The position numbers were made by a program, and so were the translations under genes. Below, in pieces: positions 6,901-35,292 of a stretch of DNA of 64,000 bases. The stretch lies in the NCBI GenBank assembly GCA_021797515.1, contig JAJZZP010000090.1, forward strand, positions 17,198-81,197, read 5' to 3'. The notes under the pieces are model-generated. The model worked only from the letters and a program-made list of their open reading frames with translations. It did no database searches and was not told the DNA's origin. The DNA is from Bacillota bacterium (GTDB lineage: Bacteria > Bacillota > Sulfobacillia > Sulfobacillales > Sulfobacillaceae). Numbering within the stretch: the first letter of the stretch is position 1; each line of letters begins with the position of its first letter.

Positions 6901-8064
6901 TTATAGGCGCCGAATAATAGTCGCATTAGCCATGCCCCCACCTTCACAAATGGCAATGAGACCATATGTTGCCGCCCGGCGTTCCAGTTCATAGAGCATG
7001 CTTGTCACTAACCGCGCACCGGTAGCCCCTAAGGGGTGTCCGAGCGCAATCGCGCCCCCATTAACATTGACTTTGTCCCACGGCACCTGGGTTTCACGTT
7101 GCCAAGCCAGTACCACGGGGGCAAAAGCTTCGTTGATTTCATAGAGATCTATTGCGTCGGCGTCTAGTCCTGCACGAGCTAAAGCCTTTGCCGTCGCCGG
7201 GATAGGGCCTGTAAGCATAGTAACTGGGTTAACCCCGACGACCGCAAATGATACAAATTCCGCGCGGGGTCGCAAGCCCAATCGCTCGCCCACATCACGA
7301 GAGCCGATCAATACGGCCGAAGCCCCGTCGGACACTTGACTCGCGTTCCCCGCCGTGATCAGATTTAAGCCTGGAAACGCAGGCGGCAATTGCCCCATTC
7401 TTTCCAGGGACGCATCCGCACGAATCCCTTCGTCCTTTTCCGCCCACACGGAATTTTGCCCCGACAGCATAACACGAGCAATTTCCGAGGAGAAACGGCC
7501 CGTAGACTGTGCCTGGGCGGCCCGCCGGTTGCTTTGCCATCCTACCCAGTCGAGTTCATCCCGCGTTAAGTGCCACTGCTCAGCAACACGTTCGGCCCCT
7601 AATGCCTGATCAAACCACTGACCCTGGTCCATGCGATATCGCCTGGATAAATTATCAGTCAGCGGGGCGCCAGGACTCAGCATATTACTTAACATAGGGA
7701 CTCGGCTCATTGACTCAACGCCACCTGCCACAACCAGATCGTAGCTCCGAGCCATGACCCCCTGAGCCGCAAAATGAATCGCCTGAAGACTCGATCCACA
7801 TTGGCGGTCAACAGTCGCACCAGGGACTGACTCGGGAAGTCCTGCCGATAACCAAGCATTGCGCGCAATATTGACTGACTGCTCACCAACTTGGTCCACA
7901 CACCCAACAATCACGTCATCTACGCATGCCGGAGAAATCCCGACACGTAAAAATAGCTCAGAAAATACCGTTGCTAACAAATCCACCGCATGAACAGAGG
8001 CCAACAGCCGACCACGCTTTCCAATCGGTGTCCGTACGGCCTCGAAAATGACTGCCGTCTCCAT
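6901..8064 (-). CDS. Thiolase family acyl-CoA acetyltransferase
   Basis: Second copy of the 2836-type thiolase, 387 residues from the chosen start. Nucleophile Cys in CGSSLQAIHFAAQG, His motif GHPLGATGA and C-terminal CEGGGMAN are all intact. The ATG at 8064 is preceded by GGGGGTAAGG; an in-frame ATG at 8145 would overlap the upstream dehydrogenase gene and adds 27 unrelated residues. It is the last gene of the minus-strand set that starts near 13716, with the mutase, 3-hydroxyacyl-CoA dehydrogenase and acyl-CoA dehydrogenase. It likely cleaves the ketoacyl-CoA they form. Confidence 0.88.
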   Translation of the reverse strand: METAVIFEAVRTPIGKRGRLLASVHAVDLLATVFSELFLRVGISPACVDDVIVGCVDQVGEQSVNIARNAWLSAGLPESVPGATVDRQCGSSLQAIHFAAQGVMARSYDLVVAGGVESMSRVPMLSNMLSPGAPLTDNLSRRYRMDQGQWFDQALGAERVAEQWHLTRDELDWVGWQSNRRAAQAQSTGRFSSEIARVMLSGQNSVWAEKDEGIRADASLERMGQLPPAFPGLNLITAGNASQVSDGASAVLIGSRDVGERLGLRPRAEFVSFAVVGVNPVTMLTGPIPATAKALARAGLDADAIDLYEINEAFAPVVLAWQRETQVPWDKVNVNGGAIALGHPLGATGARLVTSMLYELERRAATYGLIAICEGGGMANATIIRRL

Positions 8065-8122
8065 CGCCTTACCCCCATCCCAGTATGCTGTTATGTTATC
8101 CGCTTCATGATGAAAAGGCACC

Positions 8123-9277
8123 CTAGAGGCCCAGGCTTTTAGCAATGATCGTCTTCATAATTTCGTTGGTGCCGGCATAGATCTTGCTGACCGTGATGTC
8201 TCGGTAACGCCGTGCAATTGGGTATTCTTCCATATATCCGTACCCACCAAACAATTGCAAGCACTCCATGGCCGCGTGTTGTGCCATCTCCGTTACCCAC
8301 CACTTAGCCATGGCGGTCTCCTCGCTTGAAATTGTCCCGCTGGCATGACGAGATACTAAACTTCCAACAAACTCGCGGGCGATAGCCACTTCGGTGGCGA
8401 CTTCCGCTAATTTAAACCGCGTATTTTGAAATTTGCTCAGGGGCTGCCCAAATACCGTCCTTTGTTGGACATAACTTAATGTCATCGCCAAGATCTCTTC
8501 TGCGGCAACAAGGCTCTCTACCGCAACCAGCAAGCGTTCCTGCGGGAGATTTTCACTCAAATAGTGAAATCCTTGCCCTGGTTTCCCTAAAACATTGGTA
8601 TCCGAAACCATACACCCATCGAAATGCAATTCCGCGGTATCCTCCGCCCACAGGCCCATCTTCCGTAATTTCCGACCTTTAGAAAAACCCGGCGTATCCG
8701 ACTCCACCACAATTAAACTCATTGACTGTTTAACATCATCGAGGGATTCAGTTTTGCACACGACGACTATAAGGTCGGCGGAATGCCCATTGGTGATGAA
8801 GGTTTTGTGCCCATTTATCCGATAGTAATGGTCTTGTCGTTCCGCACGGGTTTGGATAGCCTTAAGGTCGGAACCTGTTCCAGGCTCTGTCATCGCTATG
8901 GCGCCAACTAAATCCCCCGCTATGCACCGCGGCACCCATCGCTGTTTTTGCTCATCGGTGCCATATCGTAGTAAATAGGGCAGGACAATACCTACGTGCA
9001 GAGAGATGCCGTTAAGACTGGAACCAATACGTTCAAGTTCTTCTACAAAAATTGCTAAAAACGTGAAATCCAACCCCGATCCCCCATAAGCCTCCGGCAC
9101 TCCAAGGCCGAGGTATCCCATTTCTCCTAACTGTTGCCAAAACCCACGAGGAATTTGCCCCTGTTCTTCCCACAGATTAAAATGTGGCTTGGCTTCCTTC
9201 TCAAGGAAGCGACGAATATTACTTCGCAATGTTTTGTGGTCCAAATCTTCCGAAGATTCTTTGATGTCATCCATCAT
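8123..9277 (-). CDS. Acyl-CoA dehydrogenase, LCAD/IVD-type active site
   Basis: FAD enzyme that makes the 2,3-double bond of an acyl-CoA. The 384-residue protein has the flavin/acyl motif MTEPGTGSD, the QLFGGYGYMEEYP stretch and a YAGTNEIMK C-terminus. The usual MCAD-type catalytic Glu before Gly-Thr is Ala here. Instead LPQERLL in helix G matches the place where long-chain and isovaleryl-CoA dehydrogenases carry their catalytic Glu, so I infer that family. AAGGAGGG lies upstream of tandem ATG codons. Electrons would go to an ETF not encoded in this window. Confidence 0.88.
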   Translation of the reverse strand: MMDDIKESSEDLDHKTLRSNIRRFLEKEAKPHFNLWEEQGQIPRGFWQQLGEMGYLGLGVPEAYGGSGLDFTFLAIFVEELERIGSSLNGISLHVGIVLPYLLRYGTDEQKQRWVPRCIAGDLVGAIAMTEPGTGSDLKAIQTRAERQDHYYRINGHKTFITNGHSADLIVVVCKTESLDDVKQSMSLIVVESDTPGFSKGRKLRKMGLWAEDTAELHFDGCMVSDTNVLGKPGQGFHYLSENLPQERLLVAVESLVAAEEILAMTLSYVQQRTVFGQPLSKFQNTRFKLAEVATEVAIAREFVGSLVSRHASGTISSEETAMAKWWVTEMAQHAAMECLQLFGGYGYMEEYPIARRYRDITVSKIYAGTNEIMKTIIAKSLGL

Positions 9278-9351: not shown

Positions 9352-11103
9352 TCAATATGGCGAAATCCATCCCAAATGCTTTTTCATCGCCTCCATAAGT
9401 TCTCCTGTTGTCGCATCAGCCAATGATGCCTCGACCATAGCGGGAATAAGATCGAGCCCTTGCCTGCCATCGGCGAACTCACCGAGCGCATGTTCCACTC
9501 TACGCATCGCTTTCTGCCATTTCGATGGATCGCGTAGCTGTCTTAGCTCTCGAATTCGCTTCACTGAAATAGCCTCATCTTGAGGAGGAACTTCAAACAC
9601 TTCGACGGTCAAGGGATCCGGGGTATCATATTTGTTCACGCCCACCATCACCCGTCGTCCTGATTCCACGTCGTTTCGCCAACGTGCAGACCGCTCTTCA
9701 ATTAAGGACCTGACATACGCATGATTGCGCGTGTAACCCCCTCTCTTCTCTAGCTCGTCTATCAGGTTTTCTCCCGCCTGCACCAGATCCGCCGTAAGCC
9801 GTTCTACATAATACGAACCTCCTAAAGGATCCGTCACCGCGGTGATATTGGTCTCTTCTTGAATCACTTGCTGCACACGGAGTGACAACGTATGTGCCAT
9901 CTCGGTGGGTATTGCCAACGCCTCATCGAAAGAACTTACTTCCATAGCCTGCACACCCGCCAATGCTGCCCCCAAGGCATGTAGTGTGGTTCGAATTAAG
10001 TTAACCAAGGGCTGTTGCCCCGTCAACACGGCTCCCGATGTATGCGTATGGATTCGCGCATGCATCGCACTGGCTTTCGTAGCGCCGAGCTTACGACATT
10101 GTTTCGCCCAGATCTGGCGTAAAGCCCTAACTTTAGCAATTTCTTCAAAAAAATCATTGGCCTGGGCTATTTGAAATCCAAAACGCCCTAGCACATCGTT
10201 AGGATTCATTCCGGCATCAATACAGGATTTTGCATACTCAATGCCTGCCGCTACCACCAATCCAATCTCGTGAACCGCATTGCCACCCGCTTCCTCGATA
10301 CCATAGCCGAACAGGTTCAGTGTGTTCCATTGGGGCATGTGGCGACCACAGAATCGAATCAGTTCGACCGCCAAGCGTTTTCCCATTTCCGGTGGAAAGC
10401 AACTCATACCGCAATAGGCACTAATGTAATACCAATTCATCGTGTTTCCCCGCAGGGCGTCCCATGGCACCCCTTTTGTCTGAGCATAAGCCAGGTAATG
10501 AGCCAGGACAGGTAAAACCTCGTAATCCGTAATGTGGACCACGTTAATTGCGGTTAAGTCAAGGCCACGAAACAAAATTTCCATATCCTGTCGGCAATAT
10601 ACGGCCATGCCGTCTTTGCCAACCCTTCCCGCTGCAGCTGGGTGATCGGGGTCAATCCCTTGATGGGACACAAGGTCATAAACCAAGTTATAGAACGTAC
10701 GCCCCATGTATCCTGTCATTCCTTGTGCTCGAAGACTATCCATTCGTTCCCGAGTGTGTTCTGGCAAGCCATAACCAATAACGGGTTGGTTTGCCCACGG
10801 GAACAGTTGGTACTGGCTGGCGTAAAGCCCGCGAGTAAATGGGACGGAACCCGGCGCATTGATGTCGTCTGGTGAAATGTCGTCTATATCGGTCAAAAAA
10901 TAACATGGCTTAATCGGCATCCCGGAATGCGTAACAGGTGCTGGCGGCGCTTCGCCGTTATGAAATCGACGAGACAAGCGGGAAAACTCGGTGGCCCAAG
11001 TTTCTTGAAAACCTTTTTCCGACCTGAGACGACGATCCCATGAGCCAACTTTCGATTCCTGATTCTTGTTGTCTTCAGAAATATTTGACGGTGTTTCCGC
11101 CAT
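9352..11103 (-). CDS. Divergent B12-dependent acyl-CoA mutase, catalytic subunit
   Basis: Member of the methylmalonyl-CoA mutase large-chain family (583 residues, TIM barrel, no B12 domain), which rearranges the carbon skeleton of an acyl-CoA. Family landmarks such as RGLYASQY, VLPVLAHYLAYA, GYGIEEAGG and DPLGGSYYVE align well. Key residues of the P. shermanii enzyme are changed: the RQY block holding Arg87/Tyr89 reads QPV, the Arg207 position is not Arg, and catalytic His244 in GYHxxEAG is Gly (GYGIEEAG). Substrate is therefore unlikely to be methylmalonyl-CoA. The start overlaps the stop of the B12 subunit gene (TAATG), with GGAGGTG upstream. Confidence 0.85.
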   Translation of the reverse strand: MAETPSNISEDNKNQESKVGSWDRRLRSEKGFQETWATEFSRLSRRFHNGEAPPAPVTHSGMPIKPCYFLTDIDDISPDDINAPGSVPFTRGLYASQYQLFPWANQPVIGYGLPEHTRERMDSLRAQGMTGYMGRTFYNLVYDLVSHQGIDPDHPAAAGRVGKDGMAVYCRQDMEILFRGLDLTAINVVHITDYEVLPVLAHYLAYAQTKGVPWDALRGNTMNWYYISAYCGMSCFPPEMGKRLAVELIRFCGRHMPQWNTLNLFGYGIEEAGGNAVHEIGLVVAAGIEYAKSCIDAGMNPNDVLGRFGFQIAQANDFFEEIAKVRALRQIWAKQCRKLGATKASAMHARIHTHTSGAVLTGQQPLVNLIRTTLHALGAALAGVQAMEVSSFDEALAIPTEMAHTLSLRVQQVIQEETNITAVTDPLGGSYYVERLTADLVQAGENLIDELEKRGGYTRNHAYVRSLIEERSARWRNDVESGRRVMVGVNKYDTPDPLTVEVFEVPPQDEAISVKRIRELRQLRDPSKWQKAMRRVEHALGEFADGRQGLDLIPAMVEASLADATTGELMEAMKKHLGWISPY

Positions 11104-11567
11104 TAGACGTCACCTCCCACAGATGCTTTCGAATGGCCCTCGTCTATCTTCGACGCTTGAATCGCCCTGACCCGTTGCCGAACAAAGGAGACAACATCAC
11201 TCGCATTCGTACCGGGTCCAAAGATTCCCTCGATACCCATCTCTTGCAATGCGGGATAGTCCCGTTGTGGAATAATACCACCTACCATTAACGGCATGTC
11301 CCCCATTCCCTGATTAACAAGTTCGGCGTGAAGTTTTTGAAGAATAGGAAGATGCCCTTGTACCGAACTGGAAAACCCAATCAAATCAACATCCTCTTGA
11401 CTGGCTACGGACACAATTTCATTGGGATCTAGAAAATTTATAAAGATGACCTCCATACCACTGTCGCGTAGCCTGATGGCAATATATCGAGCACCCCGAT
11501 CATGCATATCCATGCTTGATTTGCAAAGTAGAATCCTCGGAGGATGAGGATCATGCGTTTTTGCCAT
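11103..11567 (-). CDS. B12-binding subunit of the acyl-CoA mutase
   Basis: Separate cobalamin domain (154 residues) that pairs with the mutase subunit encoded next. The DxHxxG motif is intact as DMHDRG, so the His that ligates cobalt is present, followed by the Rossmann-like features LIGFSSSVQ and VGGIIPQRD and by FGPGT near the end. Single-domain B12 subunits are known for isobutyryl-CoA, 2-hydroxyisobutyryl-CoA and pivalyl-CoA mutases. It has GGAGGC before the ATG and is translationally coupled to the mutase gene. An intact cobalamin site next to an altered active site argues for a working but different mutase. Confidence 0.88.
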   Translation of the reverse strand: MAKTHDPHPPRILLCKSSMDMHDRGARYIAIRLRDSGMEVIFINFLDPNEIVSVASQEDVDLIGFSSSVQGHLPILQKLHAELVNQGMGDMPLMVGGIIPQRDYPALQEMGIEGIFGPGTNASDVVSFVRQRVRAIQASKIDEGHSKASVGGDV

Positions 11568-11570
11568 GGT

Positions 11571-12767
11571 TTAAGCCTCCTCTTCAACTCGAATAGCAAT
11601 GGCCGTTGCAACTCCTCCACCTCCACCAACCGTAGCAATTCCACGACCACCACCGCGCCTTCGCAATTCATGCACCATAGACGTTACAATCCGCGCTCCA
11701 CTACATCCCACAGGATGCCCTAACGCAATGCCGCCGCCATTTACATTCACCCGGCGGATATCGACTTGGAGTTCCTTGACAGATGCCAGAACTACGGCCG
11801 CAAATGCTTCATTAATTTCCCAAACATCTACCATCTGCCTGCTCCAACCAATCTGTTCCATTAACTTAAGCGCTGCCAATCCTGGGCTCTTTCCTAACCA
11901 ACGCGGTTCTACCGCAACCCGTGCAATGCCTTCAATTGTGGCAAGAGGCGGCAACCCACGCACCATCATCATTTTTCGCGACATCATAATAATTGCCGAG
12001 GCCCCATCGCTGACTAAACTTGAGTTACCCGCCGTCACAGAACCCGATTCCGAAAATGCGGGTCGAAGATGTGCGAGAGCACTCATCGACGTGTCGCGCC
12101 GAGGTCCTTCATCCCGTGCAACTAATCCACTCTTCCCCTGGATAGGCACTATTTCTTCATCGAACCTTCCCTTGTCAATGGCTTCGAGTGCGGCCTCATG
12201 CGATCGCAATGCATAGGCGTCTTGGTCTTCTCTTGTAATTCCTTGGTGTTCCGAAATAAATTCCGCTGCCAGCCCCATGTTCCACTCGCCATACCGGTAT
12301 GACGATGCCGACCAAGAAGCCTCCTCCAACATGTCTCTTAGCTCACCGTGTCCCCGTCGCATCCCCCATCTCGCATCATAGAGCAAGTAAGGGGCTCGAC
12401 TCATACTCTCCACTCCGCCCGCGATCACCACATCACCCGCATCTGTTGCGATTTCTCGAAACCCGCTAAAGATTGCTTCCATTCCTGAACAACACACCAT
12501 TTGAACCGTATAGGCCGGGATGGAAACGGGAAAACCCGCGGTTAGTGCCGCAAACCGAGCGATATTCACCGCATCGGGGGTCTGATAGACTTGGCCCAAT
12601 ACGATGAGGTCTACAGCATCCAAATCCACGCCAATGCGATCACAGGATTGGGTCATAACCCGTTCCGCCAACTCCGCGGCAGGCACCGTAGCTAACGCTC
12701 CTCCAAACCGTCCCTGAGGAGTCCGTACTGCACTGGCCAGACACACTTGCCGTTCTCTACTGTCCAT
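11571..12767 (-). CDS. Thiolase family protein with altered C-terminal active site
   Basis: 398 residues from the ATG at 12767 (AGAGGAG about 10 nt upstream; the in-frame upstream extension lies inside the previous gene). The nucleophile Cys is present in VCCSGMEA and the His in GHPVGCSGA. The usual C-terminal LCxGGG motif, which supplies the second catalytic Cys, reads ATVGGGGGVA, so this Cys is missing and the loop is shorter. It may be a slow or specialised thiolase, or not a thiolase at all. It sits between the 3-hydroxyacyl-CoA dehydrogenase and B12 subunit genes with gaps of only a few bases, so it is in the same operon. Confidence 0.82.
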   Translation of the reverse strand: MDSRERQVCLASAVRTPQGRFGGALATVPAAELAERVMTQSCDRIGVDLDAVDLIVLGQVYQTPDAVNIARFAALTAGFPVSIPAYTVQMVCCSGMEAIFSGFREIATDAGDVVIAGGVESMSRAPYLLYDARWGMRRGHGELRDMLEEASWSASSYRYGEWNMGLAAEFISEHQGITREDQDAYALRSHEAALEAIDKGRFDEEIVPIQGKSGLVARDEGPRRDTSMSALAHLRPAFSESGSVTAGNSSLVSDGASAIIMMSRKMMMVRGLPPLATIEGIARVAVEPRWLGKSPGLAALKLMEQIGWSRQMVDVWEINEAFAAVVLASVKELQVDIRRVNVNGGGIALGHPVGCSGARIVTSMVHELRRRGGGRGIATVGGGGGVATAIAIRVEEEA

Positions 12768-13716
12768 CTCCTGATGTCTCCTCTGTTCGTGGTCTAATGG
12801 GGTCGACCGCAGAATCACGGCGTAAAAAATCCCTGTCGTTGCCTCGACTTTCCGGTTTAATTGTGGGATCTCCTCGATATCCCGCCATATAACAAGCTCT
12901 CGCTAGGGCAGGAATGTTATAACGGCCTCCTAAAGTCTCGCCCAGATAGGCTTGGACTCGGTACCACGATTCAAAACTTCCAGTGCGATCTTGCAGTTCA
13001 AAAACCCCCATCGGCCACCCTAAACCTTCTTTAAGCATAAGATCCACTTGTTCGGCAGTAGCGATGCCCTCGTCCACTAGTTGCCACGCTTCGCGAACAA
13101 AAGCATTAATAAAACGCGTCATGAAAAAGCCCGGACTGTCCTTAACAACTTGGGGTTTCTTGCCCCATCGCTTCAGACGTTCGATGACAAACCCCAGCAC
13201 ATCGGGATTCGTAATGCGACTGGGAACCACTTCAACCAACCCCATGATGTTGGCTGGATAAAACCAATGGACCGCCAACAGCCGTGCAGCATTGTGCAAG
13301 GCTCCTGCCATTTCCGCCACCATAATGGATGATGTGTTCGATGCAATAATGGTCTCGTTCGCAATCAGTGGTTCCACACGTGCAAAGATTTCACGTTTCA
13401 GTGGTGGCGACTCGGATACGGATTCGATCACCATGTCTACTCCTTCGACAATCTCTGCTAAATCTGTAGACCATGTGACCAATGACCGCTGCGTGACTGC
13501 TGTTGAATAACTCACTTTCTTTTTCGTTATTGCAGTTTCCCAACCGAACGGTCCACTCCACATATTCTCAATGGCCTGGGTTAATCGCTCCGGAGATCGT
13601 CCCCACAACCTGACCTGGATGCCGCGTTGGGCCAAGGCCAACGCAATACTTTGTCCCATGATGCCATTGCCACCCAAAATAGCCACGGTTTCTTGAGCAT
13701 CGATATCCATAGACAA
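12757..13716 (-). CDS. 3-hydroxyacyl-CoA dehydrogenase
   Basis: NAD-dependent oxidation of 3-hydroxyacyl-CoA. The 319-residue protein has the N-terminal GGNGIMG nucleotide fold, SNTSSI, the catalytic His in AVHWFYPAN and its partner Glu in GLVEVV. The DSPGFxxNR motif reads DSPGFFMTR, so the conserved active-site Asn (Asn208 of the human enzyme) is Thr. It is monofunctional, without a crotonase domain. Start is TTG 13716 or ATG 13710; AGAAGGG suits the TTG better. It is the first gene of the mutase operon, directly behind the TTAG-repeat operator. Confidence 0.85.
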   Translation of the reverse strand: MSMDIDAQETVAILGGNGIMGQSIALALAQRGIQVRLWGRSPERLTQAIENMWSGPFGWETAITKKKVSYSTAVTQRSLVTWSTDLAEIVEGVDMVIESVSESPPLKREIFARVEPLIANETIIASNTSSIMVAEMAGALHNAARLLAVHWFYPANIMGLVEVVPSRITNPDVLGFVIERLKRWGKKPQVVKDSPGFFMTRFINAFVREAWQLVDEGIATAEQVDLMLKEGLGWPMGVFELQDRTGSFESWYRVQAYLGETLGGRYNIPALARACYMAGYRGDPTIKPESRGNDRDFLRRDSAVDPIRPRTEETSGDGQ

Positions 13717-13737
13717 ATCAAGCCCTTCTTTCAGGAA

Positions 13738-13786
13738 TAACTAACTAGTTAGTTAGTATTTTGCACAATCAAAATTCGATTGTCAA
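13738..13786 (-). promoter_or_regulatory. Promoter plus TTAG-repeat operator of the mutase operon
   Basis: On the minus strand TTGACA (+ 13781-13786) is followed by a 17-nt spacer and CAAAAT (+ 13758-13763). The perfect palindrome TAACTAACTAGTTAGTTA (13738-13755) lies directly downstream and the 23-nt site reaches into the -10. A repressor bound here would block initiation. The site is matched at 19 of 23 positions at 30903. Confidence 0.7.
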
Positions 13787-13849
13787 GCATTTGAGAAATC
13801 GCATGGAGACCCGTTGATATTCTTTTGGTGGTCCAGCGTGGTTCGTCAT

Positions 13850-14599
13850 TTATCCCAATCGTATAGCTCCATCTAAGCGGATTACCTCACCATTTATCAT
13901 AGTGTTTTCGATGATATGTCGAACCAACTCCGCAAACTCTTTAGGATTTCCCATCCGCTTGGGAAAGACGGTTTGATTCTCCAAGGTGTGTCGCACCCGG
14001 TCCGACACGGTTTCCATCATGGGCGTACTAAAAATGCCTGGAGCTACAGCGACAACCCTGATGCCTTTTTGACCCAGTTCTCGTGCCAGCGGTAGCGTCA
14101 TGGCGGCGATGCCGCCTTTCGATGCTACATAGGCCGCTTGGCCAATTTGACCATCAAACGCGGCAATAGATGCCGTGTTGACGATAACTCCACGCTCACC
14201 GTCGGATTGTACCGGAGACTGAGCTATCAGTTCACCTGCAAGGCGAATGACGTTAAATGTGCCGATGAGATTAACCTGGATGACTCGGGCGAAATCTTCC
14301 ATGGAATGCGGACCGGTTTTCCCTAATACTCGTTCGGCCAAAGGAATTCCAGCACAATTGATTACCCCATTTAATTTCCCATATTCTTTTTCAACGAACT
14401 GCACGAGTTGACTGACCGCTTCCTGGTCAGTAATATCCGTTCGGACAAATTGCTGTTGCCCATTGAGTGTTCCCGTCTCAATGTTCCGAACATCTGCAAT
14501 CACCACATGTCCTCCACATTGGGATAAGCGTTGGGCGGCTGCCCATCCTAGACCTGAGGTCCCCCCCGTAACAATAAACACACCTTCAGAAATAACCAT
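13850..14599 (-). CDS. Short-chain dehydrogenase (3-hydroxyacyl-CoA dehydrogenase type II-like)
   Basis: 249-residue NAD(P)-dependent oxidoreductase. TGGTSGLG forms the nucleotide loop, NCAG follows, and the catalytic pair is in AAYVASKGG. The overall look (SGLGWAAAQRL, ERVLGKTGPHSMEDFARVIQVN) resembles HSD17B10-type enzymes, which oxidise 2-methyl-3-hydroxyacyl-CoA and hydroxysteroids. The ATG at 14599 has GAGGAGGG about 8 nt upstream; the longer frame to 14653 lacks such a site. It ends the long minus-strand series from 30554 and lies just before the separately promoted mutase operon. Confidence 0.83.
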   Translation of the reverse strand: MVISEGVFIVTGGTSGLGWAAAQRLSQCGGHVVIADVRNIETGTLNGQQQFVRTDITDQEAVSQLVQFVEKEYGKLNGVINCAGIPLAERVLGKTGPHSMEDFARVIQVNLIGTFNVIRLAGELIAQSPVQSDGERGVIVNTASIAAFDGQIGQAAYVASKGGIAAMTLPLARELGQKGIRVVAVAPGIFSTPMMETVSDRVRHTLENQTVFPKRMGNPKEFAELVRHIIENTMINGEVIRLDGAIRLG

Positions 14600-16521: not shown

Positions 16522-18181
16522 CTTTACTGGCGAGAGTTACGCGCCCTGAAGCAGTTCCATTTTGGCCTGTTTTTCCCGTCTCAGAATCATGGTCTCGATA
16601 GTAGGTGTGATACAATTCACGGAGCCGATGTTTTTGGATTTTTCCAGTAGTTGTGCGAGGCAACTGGTTAACAAAGATTACCGCCTTCGGCACCTCGTAC
16701 GGACTAAGTTGGTGCCTCAGCGCATCGAGCAACTCGTGAACTTCAGGAGCGTTGTCTTCACGCGGAACCACAAAAGCGGTCACGGCCTCATGCCAATGGG
16801 CGTGCGGTAGCCCCACCACCGCAACGGCTTGAATACCGGGATGTCCCAAAAGAGCTTGCTCTATTTTTAATGAGGAGACATTTTCTCCACCGGACTTGAT
16901 CATATCTTTTTTGCGGTCAACAAAGACAAGCAGTCCGTCTTCATCAAAATATCCCAAATCTCCTGAGTGATGCCAACCAAACCGGCGACTTTCCTCGGTG
17001 GCCTTAGAATCTTGGAAATATCCCTCCATAATCATGGGACTTCGCCAAACAATTTCTCCTACATCTCCATTAGGTAATAGGACCCCGTCATCTGCCATAA
17101 TCGCAGTGTCGTACAATGTCGTCGACACTCCCCAATAATTACCCGACTTAACGCCGGTCCACCACGCGGGCAACACATTACTGGGCGGGTATGCCTCTGT
17201 CTGCCCGGAACCAAGAATGAACTCCGCACCCAGTCGAGTTTTCCCGTCTTGCAACGTGCGCTGATCCATGGGTGCCATCCCATAGACACAGGTGGTCAGT
17301 GAAGTGAGGTCATAGTAGTCCAACTCTGCAGAATCTAGAAGGGCACGGTACATCATCGGCAATAGCAATATTTTGGTAATCCGTTCCCGCTCAATCAATT
17401 CTAATAGAGCGCATGGTTCGAATCCCCGCACCAAAACGAGAGTCCCGCCCGCCATGATAGTACTAAACACTTGGCATTGCTGTCCTGCATGAAACATGGG
17501 AAGAACAATGCTGACCACAGCATCGGACCGCGTCCCCATCTCCACAAGCTCGTTGAGCGATGCCATGACAACCGCCAAATGAGAAGTCATAACCCCTTTA
17601 GGGATGGCCGTCGCACCGCTGGTGTATTGAATTTGGTAAATGTCTCGGTCATAGATAGCCACATCGTCCACTTCTTCTTGGGATCCTCTATCGAGGAATT
17701 GTTCCCAGGGGCAAATCCCATCCGATATCCCATTTACGGGAAACGTCCCAATCACAAAAAATTTTTTTCTTGTGCGTCCCATAAGTCTATAAAGCTCTCT
17801 CGCCTTCTCCACATCGTCAGATATTAAAACCGTGACATCTGCATGATTTAAAATCACGGCTGCATCATCGGGTCGCAACATGGGATTCATCGGTACTAGA
17901 ACATATCCACCTTTAGCGCAGCCAAACAACATAATTACAAACTCAACCGAGTTCCCACACATAGCAGCAACCCGAGCACCCTGGCCAACTCCCAATTGGC
18001 GCAACGCCATGGCAAAACGGTTGGCTAATTTGTTAAGTTCCTCATACGATAGCCTCACACTCTTTTCTTGACCTTGACGATGTTGTACTACGGCGATTTT
18101 GTGGGGATATCGGTGCGATGACCGTCGCAGTATATCACCAACTGCCACCCGTCCAATCAAATTGGCCTCGAGGTCCGTCAT
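16502..18181 (-). CDS. Acyl-CoA ligase
   Basis: 559-residue adenylate-forming enzyme activating an unidentified acid to its CoA ester. P-loop YTSGATAIPKG (a variant of SGTTGxPKG), SGQTEAYPP in place of the more usual GYGxTE, HSGDLGYFDEDGLLVFVDRKKD and TTTGKIQK with the catalytic Lys. GGAGGG stands just before the ATG. SGQTE also occurs in the ligase at 24766, so these two form a subfamily distinct from the other four. Neighbours are a DUF35 gene and another ligase on the same strand. Confidence 0.87.
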   Translation of the reverse strand: MTDLEANLIGRVAVGDILRRSSHRYPHKIAVVQHRQGQEKSVRLSYEELNKLANRFAMALRQLGVGQGARVAAMCGNSVEFVIMLFGCAKGGYVLVPMNPMLRPDDAAVILNHADVTVLISDDVEKARELYRLMGRTRKKFFVIGTFPVNGISDGICPWEQFLDRGSQEEVDDVAIYDRDIYQIQYTSGATAIPKGVMTSHLAVVMASLNELVEMGTRSDAVVSIVLPMFHAGQQCQVFSTIMAGGTLVLVRGFEPCALLELIERERITKILLLPMMYRALLDSAELDYYDLTSLTTCVYGMAPMDQRTLQDGKTRLGAEFILGSGQTEAYPPSNVLPAWWTGVKSGNYWGVSTTLYDTAIMADDGVLLPNGDVGEIVWRSPMIMEGYFQDSKATEESRRFGWHHSGDLGYFDEDGLLVFVDRKKDMIKSGGENVSSLKIEQALLGHPGIQAVAVVGLPHAHWHEAVTAFVVPREDNAPEVHELLDALRHQLSPYEVPKAVIFVNQLPRTTTGKIQKHRLRELYHTYYRDHDSETGKTGQNGTASGRVTLASKDVDNDT

Positions 18182-18217: not shown

Positions 18218-18700
18218 TCACAATAATCGAAAATAGGCAATATCAGTCATGGCCCCATCTCTTTTGGCCTTCCATACTGCCTCAACCCGTGTTCCTATGG
18301 GAATACGGCTGGCGGCCATTTCCACGTTGCTTAAGTCTAAATCACCAATCCAATGCAAAAGGCTCGTATCAGCACCATCTAATTTCACCAAAGCAATAAC
18401 ATAAGGCGGTGTCGGCAGTCCTTCATATTGCATACAATTGATCGCAAAAGATTCAATCGAGCCTTGCGGGCCTACTTCTACCCAGTCTTGCACAGGAACA
18501 AAACATTGCTCGCAAAAGGAGCGCGCGGGTACCAGCACACGTTGACATTGCCCACAACGCACTCCATAGATTTTTTGTTCATCGCGCATAGCACGGAAAA
18601 ATCGGCTTGCCGTCCGCCCTGCATGGTGCGCAAAAGGAATATTCCACCTGGTTTCAATGACAATCGACTCTTCTTCACTGGATTGTTCCATCTTAGACAT
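18218..18700 (-). CDS. DUF35 zinc-ribbon/OB-fold protein, partner of thiolase-like proteins
   Basis: 160 residues. The rubredoxin-like zinc ribbon CGQCQRVLVPARSFCEQC lies near residues 49-66, followed by an OB-fold domain. DUF35 proteins bind acyl-CoA for a thiolase-fold partner; in steroid side-chain breakdown the Ltp2-ChsH2(DUF35) complex is a retro-aldolase. It is encoded next to two Cys-less thiolase-like genes (18820, 19984), its probable partners. AAGGAG precedes the first ATG; a second ATG lies three codons in. The exact reaction is inferred from context. Confidence 0.82.
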   Translation of the reverse strand: MSKMEQSSEEESIVIETRWNIPFAHHAGRTASRFFRAMRDEQKIYGVRCGQCQRVLVPARSFCEQCFVPVQDWVEVGPQGSIESFAINCMQYEGLPTPPYVIALVKLDGADTSLLHWIGDLDLSNVEMAASRIPIGTRVEAVWKAKRDGAMTDIAYFRLL

Positions 18701-18819
18701 GTCTGTAGGCTCCTTCCTTCTTCGAACGACTTTCCCGCTGAGCTGGTGGAACCGAACCGATGCTGAAAGATCTTGTCTTCGCTTACGACGGAAAAGAAGA
18801 GATCAAAATGAATATATAT

Positions 18820-19980
18820 TTATCGGGGTTCCGCCCCTAAAACCATGAGAGTCTGAAATTGCAAAACGCCACCCAGCCCGTGACACAATGCCGTTTTTAC
18901 GCCGTTTACCTGATGTTCCCCTGCACGCCCCATCACTTGCAAGGCCGCTTCCGCCATACGTACCAGCCCAGTGGCACCAATGGGATTCGTACAGAGAACA
19001 CCTCCTGACGGATTCACTGGCAAATCACCCTCCAGCCAGGTCACTCCTTCCTCGACCAATCGAACTCCTTGACCTTCTGAACAAAATCCCAAGGCTTCGG
19101 TTTGCATGATTTCCAGCGACGTAAACGGCGAATAGAGTTCGGCGACATCAATTTCCTTGCGCGGATCGCAGATCCCCACCTTGCGATATAGTCGGCGGGC
19201 GGCAACCGCGAGATTATCTCGATAGGCGACATCCGGTCTATCCCCATAAAAAAAAGTATCGGCCATGGACACTGCACCATGAATCCAAGCAGGACGGTCA
19301 GTCAGGGATCGCGCAACATGTTCTCCTGCTAAAACAACCGCTACCGCTCCATCGGAGCGTGGGCAACACTCCAACAATCGCAATGGCCATTCAATTAAGC
19401 GTGATTGCAACACCTGTTCTACCGTAACTTCAAATCTTAAATGGGCAAACGGGTTAAGGCAGGCATTCCGATGATTTTTTACCGAAACTAGCGCTCTTTG
19501 TGCATGGGTAGTGCCGTAGAGACCCATATGCCGAGTGGCAGGTAATGATCCTAAGGTAATAGCGGTTCCACCAATATTTCGATCATAGATCGGACAAGCG
19601 GCAGTATTAAGAATTGATTGGGCATCCAAGCTTTCGCTGACCCGTTGTTCGGCAACCGCTAACACCACATCACTAAGGCCCGAAGCGACTTGATGGTAAG
19701 CCGCAATTCCAGTAGACAGCCCAGTAGCCCCTGCCGTATTAATTCTCATAAATGGCCGACCGTATCCTCCGGCAGCCCCAGCACACCAGCGGTCGAGACA
19801 GTCAACGCCGTCAAATCCATCCATTACTCCAAAAACAATTGCATTCACATCATCGATTGATAAGTTTGCATCGCGTAGACATGAGTTGACCGCCTCGAAA
19901 CACAGCTCGGAATGCATTACATCTTTACGGTGGGACACAAAATGGGTCTGGCCCACTCCCACCACTGCAACTCTTTGCAT
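18820..19980 (-). CDS. Thiolase-fold lipid-transfer-like protein without catalytic Cys (Ltp2-like)
   Basis: 386 residues of the SCP2/thiolase-like family. At the nucleophile position it reads NTAGATGLS instead of a Cys motif, the GHPxGATG His is replaced (TNPIGATG) and the C-terminal Cys motif is ALCHGLGG. It cannot be a normal thiolase. Related Cys-less proteins paired with DUF35 act as acyl-CoA retro-aldolases (Ltp2) or thiolase subunits (BbsB). It is 3 bp from the similar gene at 19984, so a hetero-oligomer with it and the DUF35 protein is plausible. GGGAGGTG precedes the ATG. Confidence 0.8.
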   Translation of the reverse strand: MQRVAVVGVGQTHFVSHRKDVMHSELCFEAVNSCLRDANLSIDDVNAIVFGVMDGFDGVDCLDRWCAGAAGGYGRPFMRINTAGATGLSTGIAAYHQVASGLSDVVLAVAEQRVSESLDAQSILNTAACPIYDRNIGGTAITLGSLPATRHMGLYGTTHAQRALVSVKNHRNACLNPFAHLRFEVTVEQVLQSRLIEWPLRLLECCPRSDGAVAVVLAGEHVARSLTDRPAWIHGAVSMADTFFYGDRPDVAYRDNLAVAARRLYRKVGICDPRKEIDVAELYSPFTSLEIMQTEALGFCSEGQGVRLVEEGVTWLEGDLPVNPSGGVLCTNPIGATGLVRMAEAALQVMGRAGEHQVNGVKTALCHGLGGVLQFQTLMVLGAEPR

Positions 19981-19983
19981 GTT

Positions 19984-21114
19984 TCACCTCCCTACAATCA
20001 TTACCGCAGCCCGTTGATTGCCCCAACCGCTCATGCTTTGGGCCATTGCCGTTCGCGCCCCATCCACCTGATGTCGCCCAGCCCGGCCCATGACCTGACC
20101 CACGGATTCGGCCAGCCGAATAAGTCCGGCGGCAGCCGCTGGCCGTCCACCGATCAATCCGCCTGATGGATTAATCGCAGGTCCCGGCGTGCTCAACGGC
20201 TCCTGCAGCCATTGGTGCATCGCACCCTTTTCAAATAATCCCAGTGCTTCCGATGCCATTATCTCGTGATAGACCGTCACATCGTAAAGTTCCGCCACAT
20301 CTACCTGCCGTGGCGGATCGGTTATATCGGCCATGTGATATGCCATTTCCGCCGCCTTCTCGAGTGCCGGCAAGTGGGCCAAATCTTTATCTCCCAAGTG
20401 ATAGGTGTCATTTGCCCAGCCTATTCCTCGAATCCATATGGGCGGTCGGCCTAATCGTCGTGCGACCGGTTCGGAAGCCATCACTACAGCACAAGCCCCG
20501 TCACAGTAAGGTGCGAATTCCGGGCTACGCAGGGGGTAGACTGCATACGGAGCATTCAAGACCTCCGAAACGGTTATTGGCGCCCACACACTGGCATTCG
20601 CATTCAGCTGAGCTTGGGTGCGACTTTTCACTACCCGCTGAGCACCTTCAATATTCGTGATGCTATGCCGAATGCGGTAACTGTGGGCTTGCATCGCATT
20701 GGCGATAGCCTCGGTAAGTCCTAAAGGACGGACAAAAAATGGGTCAAGACTGTATGTGCTAAGCCTATCTTGACAAGTCTCAGATGCAACGCCGGTCGAC
20801 ACAACGAGTACCACTTCGTATTCGCCACTGAGAATTCCCAAGAATGCTTGTACCGCGGCAAACAACCCATCGTCGTGAATTCTAATTTCATCTTGATAAA
20901 ATCCACCCGCTGCAGGAACGGTGTACATGTGTGAAGCGGTTCGTCCTACACTTAGGTCATATTCTCCCATGAACCAGGCATCAACAGCCCCGCGGTCAAT
21001 CCCTGCATTGTGGAGGGCTTGTTCGGCCACAATGGTAGCCAATTCATAAAATGCATGCGAAGTCGGTTGTGCACTAGCCCACTGCGCGGTTCCTATAATT
21101 GCGACCTTATCCAT
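19984..21114 (-). CDS. Thiolase-fold lipid-transfer-like protein without catalytic Cys
   Basis: 376 residues, related to the next gene (shared NPSGG, AELY, QVMGRAGxHQV motifs) but even further from thiolases: the region of the nucleophile reads IHDDGLFAAVQAF and the His motif GGRPAAAAGL. Probably the second thiolase-fold subunit of an Ltp2/DUF35-type complex. It starts inside the last codons of the small gene at 21107-21319, so translation is coupled. Whether it is catalytic or a structural partner cannot be told from sequence. Confidence 0.78.
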   Translation of the reverse strand: MDKVAIIGTAQWASAQPTSHAFYELATIVAEQALHNAGIDRGAVDAWFMGEYDLSVGRTASHMYTVPAAGGFYQDEIRIHDDGLFAAVQAFLGILSGEYEVVLVVSTGVASETCQDRLSTYSLDPFFVRPLGLTEAIANAMQAHSYRIRHSITNIEGAQRVVKSRTQAQLNANASVWAPITVSEVLNAPYAVYPLRSPEFAPYCDGACAVVMASEPVARRLGRPPIWIRGIGWANDTYHLGDKDLAHLPALEKAAEMAYHMADITDPPRQVDVAELYDVTVYHEIMASEALGLFEKGAMHQWLQEPLSTPGPAINPSGGLIGGRPAAAAGLIRLAESVGQVMGRAGRHQVDGARTAMAQSMSGWGNQRAAVMIVGR

Positions 21115-33151: not shown

Positions 33152-33237
33152 AGACATGGTCTTCTGACAAATAGAAGAATCACGGCAATGCAGCCCGCAA
33201 GTTATAGTACCACGATCTCTTGAAAAGAGTGGATATA

Positions 33238-34377
33238 GTGGACCCATCCTTTAGCAATCGTTATTGTATCGCAGGTATTGGCCATACCAGGTATGGCGCT
33301 TTGCCAGATACGTCTGTAGAAAATTTGCACGTTCAGGCTATCCAACAGGCTGTCGCTGACGCAGGGCTAACCAAGTATGATATTGATGGGGTTCTTTGTC
33401 TCGCACCGGTATCTAACTTTCAGATTGGCTACGCGGTCAAATTATCTGGGCTGCTCGGCATTACGCCCCGAATTTTAGGTGCTCTGGACCAAGAAGGCGC
33501 GAGCATAATCACTCTCATCGGTTATGCGATGATGGCAATCGATGCTAAGCAATGTTCTGTGGCCGTTATTAGTTATGCGGATAATCCACGTTCAGGATCC
33601 CGGGCTATTTATGGGGCCCCGCGTGGTACTGACGGAATCTTTGGGTGGTTTGGCACACCAGCGGCCTACGCAATGATTGCCCGAGCACACATGGAAGAAT
33701 ACGGCACGCGGGCGGAGCAATTGGGGTCAGTTGTAGTCGCTTGCCGCAAGCATGCTCAGCTCACGGAACACGCCGAACGTCATCGCGAATTTTCTATGGA
33801 GCAGTACCTTTCGCAACCCATGCTAGTGGACCCATTTCGCCCCGCAGACTGTGCGCTGGTCTCCGATGGCGGTGCGGCGCTCATTGTCACGTCACTAGCT
33901 CATTGTCAATCGCTCGGCATACGTGACCCCATTCGAATATTGGGCATCGGTCAGGGTCACCAGCCCCAAGATCTGTCCCATCGACAGAAGTTGACGACAA
34001 GCGGCGCGGTCGCGTCGGGTCGGCAAGCCTTTGCCATGGCAGGTCTTGGCACCAGCGACATTGATGTAGCAGAGCTCTACGATTGCTTCTCGATCACCGT
34101 TCCCATCACCTTAGAGGATTACGGATTTTGTGACAAGGGCGAAGGCGGGCCTTTTGTGGAGAATGGCCGCATCGAAATAGGCGGCACGTTACCCGTGAAC
34201 ACCGCTGGTGGACTGCTGGCTGAAACCGGTTTGCCCGGTCCGCAACTCGTAATCGAGGCGGTTCGCCAAATGCGCGGGAACTGCGGGGAGCGACAAATTA
34301 TGGATGCCAAGGTAGCGTTAGTGTCCAATCAAGGGGGCATTATGCAAACTCATTCCACCTTAATTCTGGGACGGTGA
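33238..34377 (+). CDS. Thiolase-like lipid-transfer protein (Ltp2/SCP2-thiolase family)
   Basis: About 379 residues. DVAELYDCFSITVPITLEDYGFCDKGEGG is shortened here to its core AELYDCFSI, typical of SCP2-type thiolase-like proteins. No Cys stands at the nucleophile site (GALDQEGAS) and the NTHGG His is Ala (NTAGG). GTG 33238 is preferred because AAAGAG lies 8 nt before it; TTG 33220 in frame lacks a site. Its stop overlaps the DUF35 start (GTGA). With DUF35 and MaoC behind it the trio copies the retro-aldolase plus hydratase layout of sterol side-chain breakdown. Confidence 0.8.
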   Translation: MDPSFSNRYCIAGIGHTRYGALPDTSVENLHVQAIQQAVADAGLTKYDIDGVLCLAPVSNFQIGYAVKLSGLLGITPRILGALDQEGASIITLIGYAMMAIDAKQCSVAVISYADNPRSGSRAIYGAPRGTDGIFGWFGTPAAYAMIARAHMEEYGTRAEQLGSVVVACRKHAQLTEHAERHREFSMEQYLSQPMLVDPFRPADCALVSDGGAALIVTSLAHCQSLGIRDPIRILGIGQGHQPQDLSHRQKLTTSGAVASGRQAFAMAGLGTSDIDVAELYDCFSITVPITLEDYGFCDKGEGGPFVENGRIEIGGTLPVNTAGGLLAETGLPGPQLVIEAVRQMRGNCGERQIMDAKVALVSNQGGIMQTHSTLILGR

Positions 34378-34859
34378 TAGACATGGCGATTCATGACCCT
34401 CACGGCATTATTGTCGGCAACATCGAGGCGTTGTATCACCCCACGCCCGAAACCCTTCCTTTTTGGGAAGGGTGCTCCCACGGGCAGCTATGGTTACCCC
34501 AATGCTGCGAATGCCGGACCGTCCTGCATCCTTTTGATTCTACCTGTTCCGTATGCCTTGGGCCCACGCGCAAATGGATTCAGGCGAGCGGTGATGGGAG
34601 GATGATAACTTGGGTTATTTATCGAAGGTTGTACAACCCTGCCTTCACACTCCCCTATGTGGTCGCCCTCATTGCTTTGTCCGAAGGACCCCACATAATT
34701 AGCAATCTCGTTGACTGCAGTGAAGCAACAATAAAGGCCGGGATGCCTGTCAGGATCGTTTTTGACCAATTGACGGACCGGATAGTATTGCCGCGATTCC
34801 GTCCCCACTCAATACTTTTGGAGGCTGATACTTATGATCACTCTCGACAAATACTATGA
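34374..34859 (+). CDS. DUF35 zinc-ribbon/OB-fold protein
   Basis: 161 residues from a GTG that overlaps the previous stop codon (ATG 34383 is the alternative). The zinc ribbon CECRTVLHPFDSTCSVC lies near residues 45-61, then an OB-fold with WVIYRRLYNPAFTLPYVVALI. It should be the acyl-CoA-binding partner of the thiolase-like protein encoded just upstream. The 3' end overlaps the MaoC gene by 26 nt, which implies coupled synthesis of all three proteins. Confidence 0.83.
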   Translation: MIDMAIHDPHGIIVGNIEALYHPTPETLPFWEGCSHGQLWLPQCCECRTVLHPFDSTCSVCLGPTRKWIQASGDGRMITWVIYRRLYNPAFTLPYVVALIALSEGPHIISNLVDCSEATIKAGMPVRIVFDQLTDRIVLPRFRPHSILLEADTYDHSRQIL

Positions 34860-35292
34860 TGAAATCGTAGTAGGCCAGTGTTGGACTTCTCAAGGCCGCA
34901 CGGTCACCGAAACAGATGTGGTAGCATTTGCGGCACTCACCGGAGATTGGTATCCATTACATACCGACGCTACTTATGCAGCAGCTACCCAATTTGGCCA
35001 ACGCATTGCGCACGGATTACTGGTGCTGGGAATTGCTTCAGGGCTGTTACGAATTGATCCGGGAACATTGGTGGCCTTCTATGGTATGGATCGTGTACGC
35101 TTTCTTCATCCTACCTTTATCGGTGACACACTTCACGTGGAAATGACCGTCGTCGCCTTAAAGGATCGCGGGAGCGAGGACGGCCTAGTCACGTTCGAAC
35201 AGAGAGTCACGAATCAAAATCAGACTACGGTCGCGCTCTCCACCTTGAAAGTTGTACTAGCAAAAGCTCCCGGAAGTCGCTCAAACACGTGA
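34834..35292 (+). CDS. MaoC-like enoyl-CoA hydratase
   Basis: 152-residue hot-dog protein adding water to a 2-enoyl-CoA. The hydratase-2 motif is present as LTGDWYPLHTD (Asp and His catalytic; the usual Asn is Tyr) at about residues 32-42, followed by RIAHGLL. GGAGG lies 9 nt before the ATG, inside the DUF35 gene. In the Ltp2/DUF35 context the hydratase forms the tertiary 3-hydroxyacyl-CoA which the lyase then splits; this is known for the sterol pathway and inferred here. Confidence 0.85.
   Translation: MITLDKYYDEIVVGQCWTSQGRTVTETDVVAFAALTGDWYPLHTDATYAAATQFGQRIAHGLLVLGIASGLLRIDPGTLVAFYGMDRVRFLHPTFIGDTLHVEMTVVALKDRGSEDGLVTFEQRVTNQNQTTVALSTLKVVLAKAPGSRSNT

Follow-up and report, generated by a model that had tools for sequence, protein, structure and literature searches.

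A separate branch of B12-dependent acyl-CoA mutases without the hallmark histidine, encoded beside an altered dehydrogenase and thiolase

We analysed a 64,000-nucleotide stretch of DNA (hereafter the window; positions 17,198 to 81,197 of contig JAJZZP010000090.1, assembly GCA_021797515.1) from a member of the Sulfobacillaceae whose genome comprises 4.39 Mb in 196 contigs, with a focus on the two genes of a B12-dependent acyl-CoA mutase. These genes belong to a minus-strand group that runs from 13716 to 6901 and encodes, in the order of transcription, a 3-hydroxyacyl-CoA dehydrogenase (HCDH), a thiolase, the B12 subunit, the mutase subunit, an acyl-CoA dehydrogenase and a second thiolase. The mutase genes and the sites discussed are given below, with positions of methylmalonyl-CoA mutase (MCM) in the mature numbering anchored on 1req_A. 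The codons of all sites were verified, and those of the large subunit were placed by alignment.

9352-11103, minus strand: mutase large subunit, 583 residues, intact open reading frame (ORF); TIGR00641 at 407.3 bits against a cut-off of 303.8
11103-11567, minus strand: small (cobalamin-binding) subunit, 154 residues, intact ORF; TIGR00640 at 111.1 bits against a cut-off of 57.45
11493-11510, minus strand: cobalamin-binding motif DMHDRG, small-subunit residues 20-25
10780-10791, minus strand: NQPV (large-subunit residues 105-108), which replaces the MCM segment with Arg87 and Tyr89
10534-10536, minus strand: H190, a branch-invariant His at MCM position 165
10411-10413, minus strand: C231, on or beside the site of MCM Arg207
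10300-10302, minus strand: G268, at the position of MCM His244
10042-10044, minus strand: H354, a branch-invariant His at MCM position 330

The large subunit matches PF01642 at 464.4 bits and exceeds the TIGR00641 cut-off over the full mutase domain. It aligns over most of its length with the human, Propionibacterium and Mycobacterium MCMs and with the 2-hydroxyisobutyryl-CoA mutase 4r3u, and the fold matches of one predicted structure indicate an MCM-type barrel. A preliminary description of this locus had reported a clear alignment with MCM as well as an intact DxHxxG motif in the partner subunit; the profile scores bear out the former and DMHDRG the latter. The two subunits are predicted from these matches to carry out the carbon-skeleton isomerisation of an acyl-CoA with adenosylcobalamin.

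In MCM, Tyr89 and Arg207, together with Arg87, form the carboxylate clamp and His244 contacts the thioester. The alignment places Q106 at the position of Arg87, V108 at that of Tyr89 and G268 at that of His244, in the segments NQPVIGY and GYGIEEAG that had been read from the sequence before. The assignment at the Arg207 site depends on the alignment, being a gap, C231 or the next Gly, with Arg in none of the three alignments; the earlier reading that this site is not Arg therefore holds. The loss of Tyr89, Arg87 and Arg207 fits the suggestion, also made then, of a non-carboxylated substrate, and a bulkier one is plausible.

These residues are shared by relatives. Among the best 120 of 2939 proteins at E<=1e-40 (from 7997 candidates scored, and with the window's own protein as one of the 120), position 87 is Gln and position 89 Val in every case, while position 244 is Gly in 112, Glu in 5 and Val in 3. 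In an extended set of 124 branch rows, which includes repeats (the window protein appears twice, as WINDOW and P0001, and L052 is identical to P0002), Arg87 and Tyr89 are absent throughout. Val occupies position 89, which is variable among the reference mutases, in all 124 rows, and the 207 column holds V in 91, C in 12, T in 12 and H in 8, with no Arg among the residues listed. The changed residues are thus not due to chance. A misreading or a frameshift can likewise be dismissed because the ORF is open, identity to relatives is 52-63% and Q87 and V89 recur in all of the best 120.

The change in the mutase is far wider than that described before. There are 43 positions at which one residue is common to at least 11 of 12 reference mutases and another to at least 93% of the 124 branch rows; the references are three solved enzymes and nine uncharacterised relatives, and L005 is excluded from them but included in the 13 comparison mutases referred to below. 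The switches include R87Q, S114N, M165H, T166I, T195N, Q197M, H244G, S285G, F287Q and Q330H. Most of them cluster at 78-90, 113-121, 162-166, 195-203, 239-244, 284-287, 330 and 362-366, segments which we take to hold most of the MCM contacts to CoA, the thioester, the acyl group and adenosyl. The branch also has a 6-residue insertion immediately before the strand of MCM Ser114, and it retains Y243, E247, R283, H328, Q361 and E370. The claim that the catalytic His is lost stands for position 244, where 12 of the 13 comparison mutases keep it. It needs qualification in that H190 and H354 are new: both are present in 124/124 branch rows and in 0/13 comparison mutases, which all have Gln at position 330. 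Either may be the displaced His that the preliminary description had named as evidence against such a loss. Since most of the 43 switches cluster in substrate and cofactor segments and are accompanied by two new invariant His residues and an insertion, the substrate channel appears to have been refitted rather than one His merely lost, and one of the new His residues may do part of the work.

The joint switching of most residues that contact CoA or the thioester in MCM (R82, S114, S164, T166, T195, Q197, H244 and S285) could also mean that the substrate is not a CoA thioester or that the migrating group is not the thioester, with another carrier or another 1,2-shift in play. We regard this as improbable, as CoA ligases, an HCDH and a thiolase surround the mutase and Arg283 is kept. 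Nor is R82 universal among MCMs, since an M. tuberculosis chain has Gln at this position, which cautions against over-reading such positions.

We examined how distinct and how widespread the branch is. A branch profile was scanned against 41 genomes, namely the window's own (G000) and 40 relatives, and returned four places at 1025-1082 bits: two in the window's genome and one each in G003, which the search tool placed in the same genus, and G005. All other matches listed were at or below 486 bits, and the remaining 38 of the 41 genomes had no high-scoring match. The preliminary description had proposed a phylogeny as a check, and in a 29-row tree the 16 branch rows are separated from 13 other mutases by a branch of length 2.47 with 100/100 support. 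This tree was built without the characterised RcmA, IcmA, PcmA and ethylmalonyl-CoA mutase, and the long branch of L005 may be misplaced in it. Two peptide patterns, searched for in 84,980 species genomes, yielded 42 loci, a lower bound because the patterns must match exactly. As labelled, they comprise 16 Alphaproteobacteria, 11 Actinobacteria, 10 Beta-/Burkholderiales, 2 Bacillota, 2 Deltaproteobacteria/Desulfobacteraceae and 1 Acidobacteriota (Pyrinomonadaceae). The mutase is therefore a member of a branch that spans six phylum- or class-level groups by record label, not one odd protein, although the branch looks rare in genomes. One contig (L010), from a metagenome bin, is labelled Bordetella parapertussis; its module copy resembles those of other Burkholderiales bins and the label may be wrong. 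Named relatives are mostly called methylmalonyl-CoA mutase or acyl-CoA mutase large subunit family protein.

We find it scarcely credible that the enzyme is an MCM despite these changes. The fold and family matches would agree with that function, and 1e1c is listed as an MCM structure with H244A, so that the fold survives the loss of this His. However, the clamp residues Arg87 and Tyr89 are gone from every branch row with no Arg listed at 207, and the window's genome has another mutase (L001) with Y89, R207 and H244. An MCM with local drift is ruled out by the residues together with the profile gap.

The two mutase genes are part of a conserved multi-gene module, which the preliminary description had not recognised. 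Within 6 kb of the large subunit, tblastn searches of the 42 loci found the small subunit at 36, a thiolase at 32, an HCDH at 28 and MeaB at 20; at the 21 loci whose flanks exceed 5 kb before the large subunit and 4.5 kb behind it, the counts were 20, 17, 17 and 12, respectively. The queries were drawn partly from searched loci themselves (L006, L023 and L031), and gene calls at the loci came from a simple script. The three MeaB copies tested all exceeded the TIGR00750 cut-off, and at the level of the branch the mutase thus fits the pattern of MeaB-serviced enzymes. The gene order varies by group, with the thiolase divergent in many alphaproteobacterial and acidimicrobial loci and the order MeaB-HCDH-thiolase-mutase in several Burkholderiales loci and Sulfobacillus; the gene set persists despite these changes. 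Across the 41 genomes, only those with a branch mutase have the module HCDH (464-507 bits, next match 213) and the module thiolase (581-617 bits, next match 468), and both genes lie beside that of the mutase. The high-scoring mutase, HCDH and thiolase occur together in G000, in two copies, and in G003 and G005. As a control, 14 loci of non-branch mutases (L048-L050 and L062-L072, some cut by contig ends) gave a thiolase or HCDH in 0/14 at E<=1e-8, and the same search found both at the branch loci L051, L073 and L074. These distributions show that the module is inherited as a unit. The second copy in the window's genome (L051:4639-15789, contig G000:C25) is complete and encodes the mutase and its small subunit as well as thiolase, HCDH and MeaB. 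Beyond it lie divergent ORFs that have the size of ligase genes. In G005, on the same record as L007, a module HCDH at C94:151-1050 has one internal TAG and is either an assembly error or a decaying copy.

The module also bears on whether the mutase is a degenerate or non-catalytic paralogue. It lacks the catalytic His, and in the tree the window copy has a long end branch (0.86), as such a paralogue might. We nevertheless hold this to be highly improbable in view of the conservation in 120 relatives, the invariant B12-side residues, the intact DxHxxG motif, the association with MeaB and the module, and the presence of two intact copies in one genome. The neighbours of the mutase genes in the window are as follows.

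11571-12818, minus strand: module thiolase, 415 residues, with G398 (codon 11625-11627) where the second catalytic Cys is expected, by alignment to 3ss6
12757-13716, minus strand: module HCDH, 319 residues as called, with Thr200 (codon 13117-13119) for the Asn of 3mog and HWFYP for HFFNP, by alignment
8123-9277, minus strand: acyl-CoA dehydrogenase, downstream of the mutase (ORF and profile match)
6901-8145, minus strand: ordinary thiolase that keeps its second Cys (IAICEGGG) and overlaps the acyl-CoA dehydrogenase gene (profile match and alignment)

Both module partners are altered at positions assigned catalytic roles in HCDH and thiolase. All 26 aligned module HCDHs read GFF[MTL]TRF, with Thr in place of the Asn of the PDB relative 3mog, and HWF[YF]P replaces HFFNP. 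The module thiolases keep the nucleophilic Cys and the His of the GHP motif, and all 31 aligned copies have Gly or Pro for the second Cys of 3ss6; the other two thiolases of the window in the alignment, at 2836 and 6901, retain that Cys. These two, together with L014_0003 and L047_0019, were aligned without being counted as module copies, and L003_0013 and L004_0007, which are truncated repeats of the window genome, were dropped before alignment. The tblastn searches also found thiolases at L010 and L015 and HCDHs at L011, L013 and L015 that are outside the alignments; the same motifs are present in the HCDHs of L011 and L013 and in the thiolase of L015. Because the HCDH and thiolase are altered even though the window operon also has an ordinary thiolase, their sequences argue that the mutase product would not be an ordinary beta-oxidation intermediate and could, for example, be alpha-branched.

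The same strand continues upstream, as far as about 30.5 kb, with genes for acyl-CoA ligases, more proteins of the thiolase type, an OB-fold (ChsH2-type) protein, acyl-CoA dehydrogenases and short-chain dehydrogenases/reductases. Two places, 18218-21114 and 33220-35292, combine Thiolase_C_1-type thiolase proteins with OB-fold ChsH2-type proteins, and one of them adds a MaoC dehydratase; pairs of this kind can serve as retro-aldolases when sterol side chains are degraded. Within the acyl-CoA gene island, L050:11728-13014 encodes a protein with RRXRR and HNH endonuclease domains, the domain pair of IscB-like nucleases.

The preliminary description's proposal of a new substrate class is well supported by the separate clade (100/100), the channel positions re-fixed over 124 rows and the dedicated, altered HCDH and thiolase. 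We conclude that the enzyme is probably a catabolic mutase dedicated to a new substrate without a carboxylate. The chemistry open to B12 acyl-CoA mutases is a 1,2-exchange in which the thioester carbon and a hydrogen swap places. If the product is an alpha-methyl 3-hydroxy- or 3-oxoacyl-CoA, the natural substrate would be a 4-hydroxy- or 4-oxoacyl-CoA and thiolysis would give propionyl-CoA. We therefore tentatively propose that this separate-branch mutase acts on a gamma-oxygenated, likely non-carboxylated acyl-CoA, whose thioester-bearing carbon it moves to the neighbouring carbon, and so lets the dedicated HCDH and thiolase cut the chain. That the substrate is gamma-oxygenated is, taken by itself, possible but doubtful. 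Somewhat more doubtful is the fullest form of the proposal: a new reaction type, a gamma-to-beta shift, which would turn 4-hydroxy- and 4-oxoacyl-CoAs (from gamma-hydroxy acids, opened gamma-lactones and levulinate-like acids) into 2-methyl-3-hydroxy- or 3-oxoacyl-CoAs by means of a channel rebuilt without the hallmark histidine, carried across several bacterial phyla as a portable mutase-MeaB-dehydrogenase-thiolase module.

Such a pathway could begin with an AMP-forming ligase, for which genes are seen nearby and the specificity is presumed, that makes the CoA ester. By homology, adenosylcobalamin on the DxHxxG subunit, serviced by MeaB, would then yield a 5'-deoxyadenosyl radical that abstracts a substrate hydrogen. 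A 1,2-shift would convert R-CHOH-CH2-CH2-CO-SCoA, or its 4-oxo form, to R-CHOH-CH(CH3)-CO-SCoA, and the invariant His190 and/or His354 might, speculatively, assume part of the polar role. The altered HCDH would oxidise the resulting 2-methyl-3-hydroxyacyl-CoA, and the altered thiolase would cleave the 2-methyl-3-oxoacyl-CoA to an acyl-CoA and propionyl-CoA. An acyl-CoA carboxylase pair (carboxyltransferase and biotin carboxylase) flanks the module in Nocardioides L024 and Nocardia L030, and at least the carboxyltransferase part does so in Streptomyces L016, as a propionyl-CoA product would need. At the same three loci a protein of the metallo-beta-lactamase fold is encoded between HCDH and MeaB (L030:12841-14103, L024:12882-14117 and L016 at about 12819-14064), with weaker relatives about 8 kb off in L008, L010 and L013. 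Its solved relatives include one named paraoxonase, the best match, and several named CoA thioesterase. Accessory genes typed in L019, L028, L034, L037 and L038 showed no common theme; the downstream genes of L037 include a NiFe hydrogenase set.

Several observations weigh against this proposal. No thiolase was found within 6 kb at 10 of the 42 loci, several of them cut by contig ends, and 4 of the 21 well-flanked loci (L032, L034, L043 and L045) have neither thiolase nor HCDH. Among the window ORFs that were typed or clustered there is no MeaB, and none was found beside the window copy; one adjoins the paralogue on C25. The carboxylase matches fall below the NCBIfam cut-offs and could serve other CoA esters, and no lactonase or levulinate gene is consistently linked to the module. 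A thiolase without the second Cys may not do ordinary thiolysis. A gamma-hydroxy or gamma-oxo substrate does not itself explain the loss of His244.

The gene context would also suit a saturated acyl-CoA, for instance one from an alpha-quaternary or branched acid, isomerised before beta-oxidation in the manner of isobutyryl- or pivalyl-CoA mutase. In the window, the gene after that of the mutase encodes an acyl-CoA dehydrogenase, L043 has enoyl-CoA hydratase, acyl-CoA dehydrogenase and electron-transfer flavoprotein genes after the mutase instead of the module partners, and a PaaG/ECI-like crotonase, an isomerase judging by its motif, is present at several loci. No carboxylate clamp remains, as also expected for such substrates. 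Isobutyryl-CoA mutases have Phe at 89 and Gln at 207 and keep His244. The window enzyme has V108, C231 and G268 at these sites versus F, Q and H in L002 and L059, and these two also keep Arg87, Gln197 and most of the channel, so that the switch is not needed for such substrates. Since an acyl-CoA dehydrogenase close behind the mutase is seen only for the window and L043, most loci being untyped for it, we judge this possibility distinctly unlikely.

The strongest rival, which we consider unlikely, is an enzyme like 2-hydroxyisobutyryl-CoA mutase (HcmAB or RcmAB) that acts on a larger 2-hydroxy-2-alkylacyl-CoA to give a straight-chain 3-hydroxyacyl-CoA, finished by HCDH and thiolase. The sequence of mutase, HCDH and thiolase genes fits it, and Val141 occupies the site of the HcmA Asp, where the R-specific enzyme of Kyrpidia (RcmA) also has Val. 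The hcm and rcm operons include a meaH chaperone gene and lead to 3-hydroxybutyryl-CoA, according to a published study (PMC7176365). On the other side, the Asp of 2-hydroxyisobutyryl-CoA mutase is absent and its His replaced, identity to it is only about 33% (with the RcmA sequence outside the comparison), and a straight-chain product needs no dedicated, catalytically altered HCDH and thiolase.

To our knowledge, known acyl-CoA mutases differ at just a handful of active-site residues. A coherent branch that lacks His244, has 43 positions re-fixed and brings its own altered HCDH and thiolase would mean that remodelling can fit this family to a new reaction. It would extend bacterial acid catabolism by a carbon-skeleton rearrangement, and an acid outside the reach of known mutases is likely broken down with its help. 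Mammals use ACAD10 and ACAD11 for 4-hydroxy acids, as reported in PMC12440821; a B12 route for such acids, if real, would be a different solution. The branch offers a direct test of how far the radical chemistry needs His244, and its current names could mislead pathway predictions. No description of the branch or of a levulinyl- or 4-hydroxyacyl-CoA B12 mutase was found among the titles and abstract starts listed for the open-licence PMC literature, a scope that leaves out most subscription journals.

The isobutyryl-/pivalyl-CoA mutase IcmF (4xc6) is fused with a GTPase part, and its best match is limited to query residues 254-518, with the Arg87/Tyr89 segment outside the comparison. A second divergent mutase is encoded about 24 kb from that of the window, upstream of the window start on contig G000:C22 (L050:848-2527, minus strand). 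It has Asn at the His244 site, the Arg207 segment is deleted, and its small subunit reads RDDYYHQRG. It shares with the branch the loss of His244 and of the Arg207 segment, whereas it keeps R82, R87, S114, F287, Q330 and N366 and falls outside the branch on its own long branch. Its best relatives include Desulfobacteraceae, Syntrophaceae and Peptococcaceae, groups that include anaerobic hydrocarbon degraders. HcmA (4r3u) resembles the branch enzyme in its two-subunit layout, its length and a likely HCDH and thiolase downstream, and is the best profile match among solved chains at 409.6 bits. The branch differs from it in lacking the Asp before FD (V141 in the window enzyme; Asp117, an active-site residue, in HcmA) and the His (G268), and in having the 6-residue insertion before that strand. 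When compared to MCM (human MMUT 2xij/2xiq, the Propionibacterium 1req alpha chain and M. tuberculosis 6oxc), the branch lacks R87, Y89, R207 and H244, carries the 43 switches, is built from separate subunits and is encoded in a module with HCDH and thiolase.

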